From Fischerella sp. CENA71 (GTDB lineage Bacteria; Cyanobacteriota; Cyanobacteriia; Cyanobacteriales; Nostocaceae): a stretch of 64,000 nucleotides of DNA. Position 1 is the stretch's first letter; every line of letters starts with the position of its first letter. The DNA lies in assembly GCA_024239075.1 (NCBI GenBank), contig JANBVI010000008.1, forward strand, positions 176,038 through 240,037, given 5' to 3'. Below are positions 1 through 5,440 of the stretch, piece after piece. The notes beneath the pieces are model-generated. The model was given only the letters and a program-made list of their open reading frames with translations. It searched no databases and was not told where the DNA came from. The position numbers were made by a program, and so were the translations under genes.

Positions 1-1256
1 ATCTGCTCTGCGTTGACAGTGTTAGCATCTACAATTCCACCAGCTATTTGGGAATTAGGTTGATAATAAATAGAAACTTTTCCAGAGGTTTGTGCTAATT
101 TTTTATTTAGTCGATTAATTGAAGAAAATAATCGATTAATTACTTTATCTTTATCTTCAAGTCTTGCTTGATATTGTGCTTCTAATGCTTTATGTGCGAA
201 TTCATAACCCTGCATGAAGTCGCCATGTATTTTTGCCTTGTCGGCATCAGGGGCAACTGACACTCTTACTACAAGAATACCTTCCCCTTTTTTCTCAATG
301 CTTTGGACATCTAGTTGAGCGCCTTGGTTTTCAACTTCTACTTTCTTGAAAGAGTATGCAAAAGCGTCCCAGTCTATGCCGTTGCGGAAAATTAGGTCTA
401 AAGTTTCTAATGATTTTTGAAATAATTTAGTAAACTCTCCTGGTGCAAAGTTTCCACTAATGGGACGGCGTTCTTGTTGGTCTTGGCGGAGGTAAATATA
501 ATCACAAATTACGTAAGTGAGATTTGTAGTGCTGTTGGTATGCCAGTCTTCTATACAGGCTCCTGTGAACGTTGCTCCAGTGAAATTAACTCCTAGTGCT
601 TCAGATTCAATAAGGTTAGCCCTACTAAGATTAGCGTCGCTCAGATTAGCCTGACTCAAATTAGCCTTATTGAGATTAGCGCCGCTAAGGTCAGCCTGAC
701 TCAAATTAGCCTTATTAAGATTAGCGCTGCTAAGGTTAGCCCTACTCAGATTAGCTTCGCTAAGATTAGCCTGTTGAAAGTCAGCCCCAAAAAAGCTTGC
801 AACAAGATCAGACCCTTTTAGATTAGCTTCTCTAAAATTGGCTTTAGCAAAAGTAGCCCCTCTAAGGCTAGCTTCACTAAGGTCAGCCTCACTGAGATTG
901 ACTCCTCTAGAATCAGAGTTTGTGAGGTCAGCTTTACTAAGACTTGCTGCAAAGAGGTTTGCCCCGAAAAGGTTTGCTCCTGCAAGGTTTGCTCCTGCAA
1001 GGTTTGCGCCGCTAAGGTTTGCTCCTGCAAGGTTTGCGCCGCTAAGGTTTGCTCCTGCAAGGTCGATATCTCTGAGATTAGCATCTCTGAGGTCAGTGTT
1101 TTTCAAGTTAGCATCACTGAAGTTTGCGCCTCTAAAGTTAGCCTCTCTGAGATCAGCACCACTAAGATTTACCTTGACGTTAAAACTTTTCTTCCACAAA
1201 TTCCAAAGTTTTATATTTAGTAGAAAAAGGATAACTTGATGTCCTACATTTGCCAT
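1..1256 (-). CDS. pentapeptide-repeat protein with cyanobacterial C-terminal conserved region (3' end cut by window edge)
   Basis: A reading frame is open from ATG at 1256 to the left edge (418 codons) with no stop, so the protein continues outside the window. Residues about 8-20 are hydrophobic and aromatic, a possible membrane anchor. Residues about 30-215 are pentapeptide repeats of the A(N/D)LSx type, which fold as a right-handed quadrilateral beta-helix. A conserved tail begins at GACIEDWHTN and is shared, with divergence, by the protein at 3647-5440 (GATIEDWGITN). It is followed by a charged helical stretch and, near the edge, by AGGIVDANTVNAEQI, which matches AGGLVNAQTVIAQQI in the CHAT protein next door. 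It is last in a leftward run of four genes. Function unknown; pentapeptide proteins are usually scaffolds. The reading frame is certain, the role is not. Confidence 0.85.
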   Translation of the reverse strand, partial: MANVGHQVILFLLNIKLWNLWKKSFNVKVNLSGADLREANFRGANFSDANLKNTDLRDANLRDIDLAGANLSGANLAGANLSGANLAGANLAGANLFGANLFAASLSKADLTNSDSRGVNLSEADLSEASLRGATFAKANFREANLKGSDLVASFFGADFQQANLSEANLSRANLSSANLNKANLSQADLSGANLNKANLSQANLSDANLSRANLIESEALGVNFTGATFTGACIEDWHTNSTTNLTYVICDYIYLRQDQQERRPISGNFAPGEFTKLFQKSLETLDLIFRNGIDWDAFAYSFKKVEVENQGAQLDVQSIEKKGEGILVVRVSVAPDADKAKIHGDFMQGYEFAHKALEAQYQARLEDKDKVINRLFSSINRLNKKLAQTSGKVSIYYQPNSQIAGGIVDANTVNAEQ

Positions 1257-1327
1257 CTAACGTAAGCCTTTTACCTTTTATTATTGAATGCAGCTTAACC
1301 TAGTTCTTGTTTCCTCAAAAACAAGGT

Positions 1328-2488
1328 TTACTCCGCCTCCTGCCAACCTTCTATAGAAGCCAACAGGATATTAATTAAAGGATTATCAATTAGCTCTTTC
1401 AACGCTTCCGTTCCACCTGCTTTCAATGCCCCAATAACTCGCGCTTTTAAAGTAGGATTTTTCTCAATTTCATCCACAGCCTTAGCCACAACCGTCATTT
1501 TTTCTGCACTGGTTGTAGTGGGGTAAGTTTGTTGCAAGTGTTGCAGGAGAGCTTCAATTTCTTTAGCTGCTTCTACAAGGTTTTGCCTTTGTTCAGGCGT
1601 GTAGTTGGTGATATTGCCGCCAATTTGCTGCGCGATAACAGTTTGAGCGTTTACAAGACCACCTGCAAATTGGGCATTGGAAAGGTCAAAATTAGAAGTT
1701 TTATTTTTCATACTTTGCCTATATTGATTACCTTGTATATAGTCACCTTCAATACGCTCGTTATAATTACCACTACCCATATTAATAATGCGAGCGCCAG
1801 CCATTTTTGCTTTTTTCTCCTTGAAATTAGGTATGAATAAAGTTTTAGAATTATTTCTAATTTTTATCTTTGGAATGAGAGACTCTGGTATACCATTGAG
1901 GTCAATATTATTGCGACCAAATTCAAAAGCATCTTGATAATTTCTTCCTGCACCAAGAGCGTCATAAAATGCTACAGAGAAATTAATAGCAGCTTTATCT
2001 GTGATAGCGCGTTCCATGCCAATAACACAGTGAATATGCTGATAAATTGCCTCTGCTTGAGCTTCAGAGTAGCAAGCATTAAGTAGTACGCATTCAATTG
2101 AGTCTTTACATAACTCAAATAGGGTTGCTAGTGAGTTTGTACTAACTAGTTGCATTTGACCGGAGTTATTTTCTAAAGCTATGCCACCTGATTGAGAATT
2201 TAAGCGGATAGCATTGCGCTGATGCTGCTCATAATTATTCTTTGAATCTACACCATTATTTTTTGTAGCGTGACCAGAAAAATGTACAATTTGTGGTTCA
2301 TTATCTAATAAAGCACGGCGCAAATCATCAATCCGAACTGCCCACCTGGTAATTAATTCAAATTCTTCTCTTGCTCTCGAACGTTCCAAAGCAGCTTGGA
2401 TTTCCCGCACTTCCTCATCTAAACGAAGTTTATTTGTATCTTTTGGATTAGCTGATAAAACTAAAATTTTTTTCATAAACATACACAA
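1328..2488 (-). CDS. CHAT-domain (caspase-like) protein with two short repeat motifs
   Basis: 386 residues. The N-terminal 220 residues fit the CHAT (caspase HetF associated with TPRs) peptidase fold: a KKILVLSANP start, HFSGH with candidate catalytic His73, and LLNACYSEAQAEAI with candidate catalytic Cys139. Two short motifs follow: INMGSGNYNERIEGDYIQG at about 234-253, shared with the two neighbouring proteins, and AGGLVNAQTVIAQQIGGNI at about 275-293, shared with the protein at 1-1256. The C-terminus (about 297-386) is helical. The sequence MAGARIINM at 229-237 resembles the N-terminus of the next gene (MANRHVINL), so this may be a fusion of a CHAT gene to a motif-bearing gene. Starts at 2488, 2482 and 2476 are all possible; none has a clear ribosome-binding site. 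It lies 14 bp after the upstream gene. Both catalytic residues are present, so it is probably an active protease of unknown substrate. Confidence 0.85.
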   Translation of the reverse strand: MCMFMKKILVLSANPKDTNKLRLDEEVREIQAALERSRAREEFELITRWAVRIDDLRRALLDNEPQIVHFSGHATKNNGVDSKNNYEQHQRNAIRLNSQSGGIALENNSGQMQLVSTNSLATLFELCKDSIECVLLNACYSEAQAEAIYQHIHCVIGMERAITDKAAINFSVAFYDALGAGRNYQDAFEFGRNNIDLNGIPESLIPKIKIRNNSKTLFIPNFKEKKAKMAGARIINMGSGNYNERIEGDYIQGNQYRQSMKNKTSNFDLSNAQFAGGLVNAQTVIAQQIGGNITNYTPEQRQNLVEAAKEIEALLQHLQQTYPTTTSAEKMTVVAKAVDEIEKNPTLKARVIGALKAGGTEALKELIDNPLINILLASIEGWQEAE

Positions 2489-2502
2489 TATTATGAAATT
2501 GC

Positions 2503-3654
2503 TCAGACTCTGCTAAAAATATAGCCACGTCCATCATTACCTGTGCCATAAAATTTATTGTCCTTGATGCTTTGTATGGCTATGACAAGCATATATGGTT
2601 GCCAACCACTAATTAAGCCTTGTACTTGTAGTATTTGAGTTTGAGGAATAAACGCCCATTGACCAGTAAATGGAATATTTGATCCTAATAATCCTGCTAG
2701 TTGTATACCTTGAAAAGTTCCATTGGGATAGAAGATAGCTTGCATCATACTTCCATCAGTTACTTGTAGGAGCCATTGACCAATGGGTTGAAACTGAATG
2801 GGGTCTGATATTTCCAACGGATACTTTTCTGAAACTTTGTGATTGTCATGAAGCAAAATATCGCATTGTCTTACCCATTCTGTACGACCGATCTGCTCAA
2901 ATATTGCCCGTGCATCGTGTAACAAATCAATGTGGGTATTATTGCCAGATGTCGCAAGTAAAAAGGTAGCTTGAGCCTGACGGAATTTATCAATATCACT
3001 TATAGGCTCATGCAAAAGATTTAAAACACGATAGAGAATTTTACGCATCTCATACGGCTCATCAGGTGTTAACTGACCCAGAGCTTGTGCCATATGTAGA
3101 AGCACTTCAGTATTTGATGGCTCAAGCTCATTTGCTTCCCGCAGCAGCTTCAAAGACTGCTTTAGTTTTGCCGTATGTGCTGCCCTATCAAAACCGACAA
3201 GTATATCATTCAAGTCAAGTTGAAAAGTATCTCCTATGGCTTGTGCTTTTGCTTTTTCTATCTTGGATTTGTGACGCTCAAGCTGATCAAAAAACAATTG
3301 CTCTGCTTCTGTTTTTAGCAAGACAGCTTTCTTGATAAGTACATCAACACGGGAAATTTTCAATTTATCTGCTCGAATCTCCTTGAGATGCTCTCCCTGT
3401 TGTTCTAAGCCTTTGACAACATTTAAAATTTCGTCAAGGTTGTTTTGTATAGTTTTGAGTTCCTGCTGACTTTCTGTCTCAGAAACTAGGCTTGGTTGTA
3501 CTTCTGTTGGAATTTTTGCAATTTGGCGCAATTGGTCAATGGCTTCTTGTGACGGGTTGACCAATTGAATAACAGATCCAATTTGTATATAATCGCCTTG
3601 AATGTACTCGTTATAATTGCCGCTATCCAGATTAATAACGTGCCTATTAGCCAT
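2503..3654 (-). CDS. motif-bearing coiled-coil/TPR-like protein with C-terminal beta domain
   Basis: 383 residues, no named family recognised. It opens with VINLDSGNYNEYIQGDYIQIG (residues 6-26), the motif also found inside the CHAT protein and at the C-terminus of the gene upstream. Residues about 60-160 are charged and helical, probably coiled coil. About 165-260 read as TPR-like helical pairs (LLREANELEPSNTEVLLHMA). The last ~95 residues are Gly/Trp/Phe-rich with alternating hydrophobics (QPIGQWLLQV, FTGQWAFIPQ), suggesting a small beta-barrel or sandwich that could sense a ligand. Its start overlaps the end of the upstream gene by 8 bp, so translation is probably coupled. N-terminal motif plus C-terminal sensor-like domain resembles the receptor side of a two-gene signalling pair; that is inference. 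Confidence 0.75.
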   Translation of the reverse strand: MANRHVINLDSGNYNEYIQGDYIQIGSVIQLVNPSQEAIDQLRQIAKIPTEVQPSLVSETESQQELKTIQNNLDEILNVVKGLEQQGEHLKEIRADKLKISRVDVLIKKAVLLKTEAEQLFFDQLERHKSKIEKAKAQAIGDTFQLDLNDILVGFDRAAHTAKLKQSLKLLREANELEPSNTEVLLHMAQALGQLTPDEPYEMRKILYRVLNLLHEPISDIDKFRQAQATFLLATSGNNTHIDLLHDARAIFEQIGRTEWVRQCDILLHDNHKVSEKYPLEISDPIQFQPIGQWLLQVTDGSMMQAIFYPNGTFQGIQLAGLLGSNIPFTGQWAFIPQTQILQVQGLISGWQPYMLVIAIQSIKDNKFYGTGNDGRGYIFSRV

Positions 3655-5440
3655 ATTCTGAATAATCTCCCTTTATATAATCACCTTGAATATCCTCGTT
3701 GTAATTTCCATCTCCCATATTTATGGTGCGATTTTCGCTGTAAAAACTAGGACGTTCTAACGCCGTCATGACCATATTTTCTAATCTGCGAATTTGATTC
3801 TCTTTTTCTGCTACTAATAATTTTATTTCTCGTGCTGTTAAGGCTTTTATCTCATTGTAAGTATCAAAATATTCAGCACTTAATTCAGACTTATCAGCAG
3901 TTTCTGCTGTCTTGGCTCTAAGTAAAAACTTATCCTGACCCCGTTTTTCCATTGCCACAATTTCTAGTTCTGCATCTGGATTGTTTTCAGCTAGTTGTTT
4001 AAAGGCGATCGCAATCGCTCTGGGATCAACACCTTGGTTGTGGTAGAGGTCGAGGGTATCAACAATTGGTTTGATAAAGTCGGCAAAGTCGCCGTCAGAA
4101 AATTTTTCTTCCCAATTGTCAGGCTTACGGTGGGGGTTAGGGTCTTCTTTAGTTGGGAGTCGCATAAAAACATACTCACACCTCACCCCATGCAACTTAG
4201 TATGATTTGTAATGCCCCAGTCTTCGATAGTTGCTCCTGTTAAAGTAGCTCCTGTTAGGTCTGTTGCATCTAGTTGGGTTTGTACCAGCTTTGACCGCGA
4301 TAAATCTGTATCTTGTAAATTAGCCTTATTGAGGTCTGTGCTGACAAAGCTAGCATCTTTCAGGTTGGCTCCACGCAAGTTGATACTGCATAGGTCAAGG
4401 CGATCAAAGTTTTGATCTTGTCCATCATTTGTAATTACCAATTGCTGTACCTTGGGATTTAGGAGATAACTTTCTCCTAGTCGGGCATAGTCTAGCTTTT
4501 GAGCTTGGAACCAGTAAGTACGGTTGAGTTTAGCACCTCTGAAATCTGTACTTTTGAGGATTGTTTGGCTAAAGTCTGCATTTGTCAAATTGCTCCTTTG
4601 AAAACTAGTTCCAAATGTTGTCGCAATGGCAACGGCAATATTGCGAATGAAAGCTTGCTTTTGACCTTTAAAGAAAGCGCACCGACCAACGTAAGTAGAA
4701 GACGCTGTTACTCCCACTGCCACTGCTACTGCTCCTGCCATTGTCACTGTGAGTGTCACTGTCGTCCCTGCTGAAGCTGCCGCTCCCGCTAGTATCATCG
4801 CACCTGTGGCAGTCACTGCTTTTACCACGACCGCTACTCTTAGCCATGCTAATGTCACTATCACGATTACTGTCGCTAGGACTGCTCCGATCATGGTTCC
4901 TAGCCCTGACAATGCTACTGCCACTGCCCCAAGTACAACTACCCCTGTCACCAAAAACCCTGTTCCCACTACTGCTACTGCTGCTGCCACTGTTACTGCC
5001 GCTTCCTCTACCACTACCGCTGTCAGTGCGCCCAGCACTGCCACTGCGATCGCTATTGTCCCTGCCATTAACAAAAATCTAAAGGCTGCTACTAAATTTT
5101 GATCAACAGCAACGATTAAAAAAACTGCTAGTACTACTAAACTGACTACACCAGCAAACAGATAATTTAAATCGCCACTAATTAGGCAAAGTCCGATGGC
5201 AGCTCCACTAACTGCTGAAATAAAACCTGAAACTGCCTCGAGCAGTAATGAAAATATGACTAAGCTAATTGTCCAACGGTTCTGTAGCCCAGCCTTAGCC
5301 CCTGTAAACTTTGCCCCTCTTAAGTTAGCGTTACTAAAATCTGCACCTCGGATATCTGCACCACTAAAATTTGCCCCTTCAAGATTTTGACCTTTAAAGG
5401 AGCGGCCACGAAGATTCTGTCTAGAGAAGTCCAGGGGCAT
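3647..5440 (-). CDS. membrane pentapeptide-repeat protein with C-terminal shared motif
   Basis: 597 residues. Residues 1-50 are pentapeptide repeats (ANFSGADIRGADFSNANLRG). About 55-265 is a long, strongly hydrophobic region almost entirely of A, V, T, G, L and I, enough for six or more membrane segments. A second pentapeptide array covers about 283-320 and 350-405. The conserved cyanobacterial tail starts at GATIEDWGITN, then come a charged helical region (REIKLLVAEKENQIRRLE) and the shared motif INMGDGNYNEDIQGDYIKG, which with a few further residues forms the extreme C-terminus. First of the four-gene run and translationally overlapping the next gene. The arrangement suggests a membrane scaffold or pore-forming effector recruited through its tail; no function is established. 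Confidence 0.8.
   Translation of the reverse strand: MPLDFSRQNLRGRSFKGQNLEGANFSGADIRGADFSNANLRGAKFTGAKAGLQNRWTISLVIFSLLLEAVSGFISAVSGAAIGLCLISGDLNYLFAGVVSLVVLAVFLIVAVDQNLVAAFRFLLMAGTIAIAVAVLGALTAVVVEEAAVTVAAAVAVVGTGFLVTGVVVLGAVAVALSGLGTMIGAVLATVIVIVTLAWLRVAVVVKAVTATGAMILAGAAASAGTTVTLTVTMAGAVAVAVGVTASSTYVGRCAFFKGQKQAFIRNIAVAIATTFGTSFQRSNLTNADFSQTILKSTDFRGAKLNRTYWFQAQKLDYARLGESYLLNPKVQQLVITNDGQDQNFDRLDLCSINLRGANLKDASFVSTDLNKANLQDTDLSRSKLVQTQLDATDLTGATLTGATIEDWGITNHTKLHGVRCEYVFMRLPTKEDPNPHRKPDNWEEKFSDGDFADFIKPIVDTLDLYHNQGVDPRAIAIAFKQLAENNPDAELEIVAMEKRGQDKFLLRAKTAETADKSELSAEYFDTYNEIKALTAREIKLLVAEKENQIRRLENMVMTALERPSFYSENRTINMGDGNYNEDIQGDYIKGDYSEYG

Follow-up and report, generated by a model that had tools for sequence, protein, structure and literature searches.

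Genes at the locus

We analysed a 64,000-nucleotide window of the Fischerella sp. CENA71 genome (G000:C8:176038-240037; genome G000, 7.47 Mb in 95 contigs), and our subject is a run of four genes at its left end that share two short motifs, here called A and B. All four lie on the minus strand, in the order PPR-TM (5440-3647), protein 3 (3654-2503), CHAT (2488-1328) and PPR-B (1256 to beyond the left edge), and all four open reading frames (ORFs) are intact. PPR-TM is a pentapeptide-repeat membrane protein of 597 residues, placed on the effector side by its pentapeptide match (E 6.7e-29), hydrophobic segments and homologues. A Kyte-Doolittle scan gives six hydrophobic segments within residues 58-246 (4703-5269), and motif A lies at the C-terminus (3653-3736). 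Its gene overlaps by 8 bases that of protein 3, a putative A-side sensor of 383 residues with motif A at its N-terminus (3565-3648).

The CHAT protein (386 residues) has a CHAT domain at residues 11-187 (1928-2458; PF12770, E 1.4e-12), in which the candidate catalytic residues His73 (2270-2272) and Cys139 (2072-2074) align with the pair of the solved structure 8tl0. Motif A (1715-1798), motif B (1589-1696) and a C-terminal tail domain (residues 297-386; 1331-1600) follow. This tail domain is of a kind seen after motif B elsewhere, matches no Pfam family and is probably helical. PPR-B (1-1256 in the window, extending 30 bases past the edge) is a pentapeptide protein with a C-terminal motif B, of which positions 1-74 fall in the window. 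ORFs read as pieces of an IS630-type transposase come directly after it, just past the left window edge (L017 8013-9212). When the window proteins were scanned, the sole NCBIfam model past its cut-off was the Alr5209-type pentapeptide model, on the left-edge protein, and chat-type PADLOC models matched CHAT.

Two short motifs link the four genes

A sequence-only reading of this DNA had proposed that motif A is shared by PPR-TM, protein 3 and CHAT, three consecutive ORFs, and motif B by CHAT and PPR-B. Both motifs are real by independent evidence. Searched against 1869 six-frame segments, models built without the window copies recovered all three copies of motif A (E 4e-15, 1e-12 and 4e-10) and both copies of motif B (E 8e-19 and 4e-11), the next-best matches having E-values of 1.5 and 2.1. 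No Pfam family covers either motif. The same reading had called the motif RHIM-like; the RHIM core consensus occurs in 0 of 144 instances of A and 0 of 103 of B, so that likeness was dropped. The carrier, receptor and cluster counts given here and below are among the matches listed.

How widespread are the motifs? Motif A matches 75 of 218 family genomes (E <= 0.1) and 13 of 338 class-drawn genomes, the window genome included (E <= 0.001); motif B matches 78 of the 218 (E <= 0.01). Each motif has at least 150 matches. For motif A, 98 of 150 listed matches lie no more than 6 kb from another, both members share a strand in 54 of 57 neighbouring pairs, and 52 of 93 clusters hold a single listed match; the corresponding figures for motif B are 94 of 150, 48 of 53 and 56 of 97. 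For A, 81 of the 93 clusters were examined (80 fetched plus our own), the 12 left out being one near-copy (G003:C10) and 11 of lower score. For B, 40 of the 97 clusters were fetched and 4 were already in the set.

The 81 A regions contain 144 motif-A ORFs, with the motif N-terminal in 71, in the C-terminal part in 57 and internal in 16. Pfam domains were assigned to 40 of the 42 N-terminal carriers of at least 180 residues (our protein 3 and one twin were left out), to 53 of the 57 C-terminal carriers (four cut ORFs left out) and to 41 of the 45 short N-terminal or internal carriers. The N-terminal carriers have NACHT in 28 of 40 cases and NB-ARC in 5; with 12 lacking a NACHT match, some N-terminal carriers are not NLRs. 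Among C-terminal carriers, pentapeptide repeats occur in 29 of 53, CHAT in 11 and TRADD-like_N in 1, and five to seven hydrophobic segments were counted in 29 of all 57. The remaining 41 show no dominant family (GUN4 in 4). Some short ORFs consist of motif A and the tail domain alone, and one protein (L103_07) combines pentapeptide repeats, a membrane part, both motifs and CHAT. By eye, a further tag is stacked on A in the PPR-TM proteins of L089, L098 and L105: motif A is followed there by a GDNN-type repeat string, with which the next gene (NACHT-like in L098) also begins.

Motif-B loci have a recurrent order: an effector with B and the tail, a pentapeptide protein with a terminal B, and at least one protein with an N-terminal B. 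PPR-B of the window resembles the middle gene. Of 37 motif-B receptors, 35 were scanned (two cut ones left out), giving NACHT in 15, AAA_35 in 13, TIR_2 in 4 and NB-ARC in 3. Carrier placement in related genomes thus bears out the expectation that the motifs pair an effector C-terminus with a receptor N-terminus encoded nearby, and strongly indicates that the receptor is usually the next gene. CHAT likewise falls on the effector side.

Neighbouring genes match by motif type

For 91 ORFs with the tail domain, identified by a model built from the tails of A pairs, we recorded the motif of the next gene on the same strand. All 91 carry A, B or C, the last being a third motif. The 56 A effectors are followed by an A gene in 36 cases, by a gene without a modelled motif in 3 and by no gene within 700 bases in 17; for the 27 B effectors the next gene has B in 20 and no modelled motif in 2, and 5 have no gene. 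Both C effectors face C. Of the three A+B effectors, two face B and one faces A; of the three A+C effectors, one faces A, one a gene with no modelled motif and one no gene. Counting only next genes with a motif, therefore, A effectors face A in 36 of 36 cases and B effectors face B in 20 of 20, with no A effector facing B or the reverse among the 91. A receptor is not the only possibility for the next gene, which may also be PPR-B or another effector. Two more cassettes of the window genome, L018 (G000:C61) and L019 (G000:C66), carry motif C, with a PPR-TM paralogue or CHAT protein that bears C and a tail of this kind, beside STAND-type proteins with N-terminal C.

A quick tree built from 44 PPR-TM bodies, with the motif region removed, shows the motif types scattered. 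Motif type needs 14 changes (minimum possible 4) compared with a mean of 16.1 under shuffled labels, which fell as low as 14 in 20 of 200 shuffles. The starred branches require A to change at least 8 times, and the tree includes one very long branch. PPR-TM proteins have therefore exchanged tails while their neighbours kept matching. The matching is by motif type, not by fine sequence.

A hybrid CHAT gene and a receptor-side protein

Two relatives bear on the origin of the window cassette. G003, of the same genus, has PPR-TM(A) first, then a CHAT(A) that lacks motif B and then NACHT-GUN4(A); G205, of another genus, has PPR-TM(A), CHAT(A+B) and a 545-residue pentapeptide protein (B), in that order. 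DNA identity between the window and G003 CHAT genes, taken in 60-column steps, is 82-100% up to the end of motif A and falls to 49-60% in the tail. Compared as protein, the window tail shares 83% identity with the B-type tail of L191_10 and no more than 54% with A-type tails. Since G003-like, A-type DNA runs through motif A and then switches to a B-type tail, the window CHAT gene is a hybrid, recombined copy. On the simplest account, an A-type operon would have crossed over with a B-type one, gaining motif B, the tail and PPR-B at the cost of the A receptor. Between the window and G205, CHAT has a ratio of nonsynonymous to synonymous substitution (dN/dS) of 0.10 and its tail one of 0.07; the PPR-B C-terminus gives 0.10 and PPR-TM 0.28. 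By this measure the two-tag CHAT effector is kept under purifying selection between two genera.

Elsewhere in the window genome, motif A was not found (E <= 0.1), and motif B only as a 17-position fragment on C13, beside another CHAT gene. The fragment (G000:C13:7236-7286, near L022) lies just upstream of that gene and may be what is left of a fused PPR-TM/B/CHAT gene. Because these motif searches found no second A or B carrier, the genome yields no A- or B-tagged NLR, and protein 3 is therefore the likeliest A-side trigger. Its N-terminal motif A places it on the receptor side. The body of protein 3 has no relatives in the other 387 genomes of the order (E 0.001), and none were confirmed in genome-contig or plasmid searches. 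Searched whole, it matches 2 of 59 other genomes (G003 and G012), with no match running past the first 73 residues. PADLOC gave nothing below E 0.019, and the body weakly resembles tetratricopeptide repeats, its best PDB match being a designed repeat protein (E 0.031). The sequence-only reading had made this protein the sensor; position and motif fit this plausible but uncertain role, although the body has no detectable relative.

Comparison with known systems

The BASS motifs of bacterial NLR/effector gene pairs reportedly go back to Dyrka in 2020. In the accessible parts of the papers, BASS are short motifs on neighbouring effector and NLR genes of filamentous bacteria (PMC7889193, PMC8086366, PMC9815663, PMC12261475), placed C-terminally on the effector and N-terminally on the NLR (PMC7889193), with CHAT named as a less frequent partner. 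The same placement was found for A and B in related genomes. As far as the accessible text goes, BASS families were defined from Bell-NLR pairs, whereas the main effectors here are membrane pentapeptide proteins and CHAT; the motif here is also followed by a tail domain, and two motif types occur together on one effector. In the accessible portions it is other motif families, not A or B, that are reported to form fibrils or behave as prions (PMC9815663, PMC7889193). EAD/TRADD-N conflict systems of multicellular bacteria, in the part of PMC8195603 available, similarly join STAND NTPases and effectors (caspase-like, TIR and others) as modules, but the adaptors there are globular domains, while the shared part here is about 28-36 residues. 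The SAVED-CHAT protein 8tl0 resembles the window protein in CHAT sequence and in the candidate His/Cys pair; the window protein has no SAVED domain, and its link to partners appears to run through short motifs.

A link to characterised immunity concerns the phage-sensing STAND proteins Avs2 and Avs4 (AVAST). Two motif-A receptors, L084_07 and L076_02, match Avs4/Avs2 profiles (PADLOC labels) over the STAND and sensor parts. In both, motif A occupies the position of the fused N-terminal effector part, and a gene of its own encodes the effector; beside the Avs2-like gene of L076 lies a PPR-TM gene. The window has no Avs protein, and its genome has no Avs2 (PDLC02164) or Avs4 match at E 1e-20. 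In the literature searched, mostly short of full text, four motif-A strings were not found and we recognised no description of the present system.

Interpretation

What do the four genes represent? The reading we favour, with moderate confidence, is a recombined cassette of a motif-linked immune system of STAND/NLR type, in which A and B serve as short homotypic tags. In an intact cassette, a sensor NTPase with an N-terminal tag would be triggered and the tags would come together; the assembled tags would then recruit effectors bearing the same tag C-terminally, namely the membrane pentapeptide protein, the CHAT protease or both. In the window, the two-tag CHAT would join an A assembly (PPR-TM and protein 3) to a B assembly (PPR-B). 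The tags probably act by assembly, which may be amyloid-like, and the chances of amyloid templating seem about even to us. The output is presumably cell death or arrest, and the trigger presumably phage.

Several observations weigh against this reading. The window encodes no NLR. Avs models match only 2 of 40 motif-A receptors and, in PADLOC, 0 of 35 motif-B receptors. Of the 81 A regions, 49 have at least two motif-A ORFs, 28 have one and 4 have none at threshold; 8 of the 28 single-ORF regions lie at a contig end and 20 do not, leaving 20 of 81 unexplained. Adjacent genes are the usual arrangement for motif pairs, though "always" is too strong. The CHAT-domain tree clusters motif type (8 changes against a shuffled mean of 15.2, 0 of 200 shuffles as low), and the demonstration of tail exchange therefore covers the membrane effector but does not extend to CHAT as a whole. 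A test of independent pairs gave 3 of 3, with only 3 pairs (p 0.25), and co-variation of paired A motifs beyond that of their carrier proteins was not found (partial Mantel r 0.05, p 0.35).

The motifs could instead be constitutive docking or folding elements that hold effector and receptor in a standing complex, activated allosterically and with no templated assembly. Type matching and adjacency need only specific binding, and the tail domain that often follows motif A could itself bind. We nevertheless consider docking rather unlikely, given that the same motif sits on unrelated bodies and that the effector C-terminus/NLR N-terminus placement is the one described for amyloid signalling pairs in the accessible text of PMC7889193. 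It is less probable still that the window copy is a remnant whose receptors were removed by recombination and insertion elements, leaving effectors with no trigger. That the genome showed no NLR tagged with A or B would fit such a loss, as would the transposase-like ORFs after PPR-B, where motif-B operons often have a receptor, and the similar ORFs that follow CHAT in G003 contig C7. Against it, all four ORFs are intact and the hybrid CHAT occurs in two genera at a dN/dS of 0.10, a value shared by the PPR-B C-termini; a functional window copy is likely but unproven. Finally, chance likeness or low complexity in Gly/Asn/Gln-rich proteins, several of them repeat proteins, is scarcely credible beside the independent-model E-values, the 56 type matches in 56 and the N-terminal placement on NTPases.

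Returning to the motif-linked cassette, we offer a more tentative extension, which we think possible but doubtful. In filamentous cyanobacteria, short type-matched motifs may replace covalent effector fusion for STAND phage sensors, including Avs2 and Avs4, with tail exchange rewiring effector bodies to other sensors; the window CHAT would then be a two-input node that couples a B assembly to an A assembly whose sensor, protein 3, is of a new kind. Tails differ among related membrane effectors, and a modelled motif in the neighbour follows the tail, so these loci amount to an experiment already set up by nature: do short signalling motifs determine which partners work together in bacterial immunity? 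As this motif class is tied to proteins matching known phage sensors, motif signalling could be examined with sensors of known trigger.
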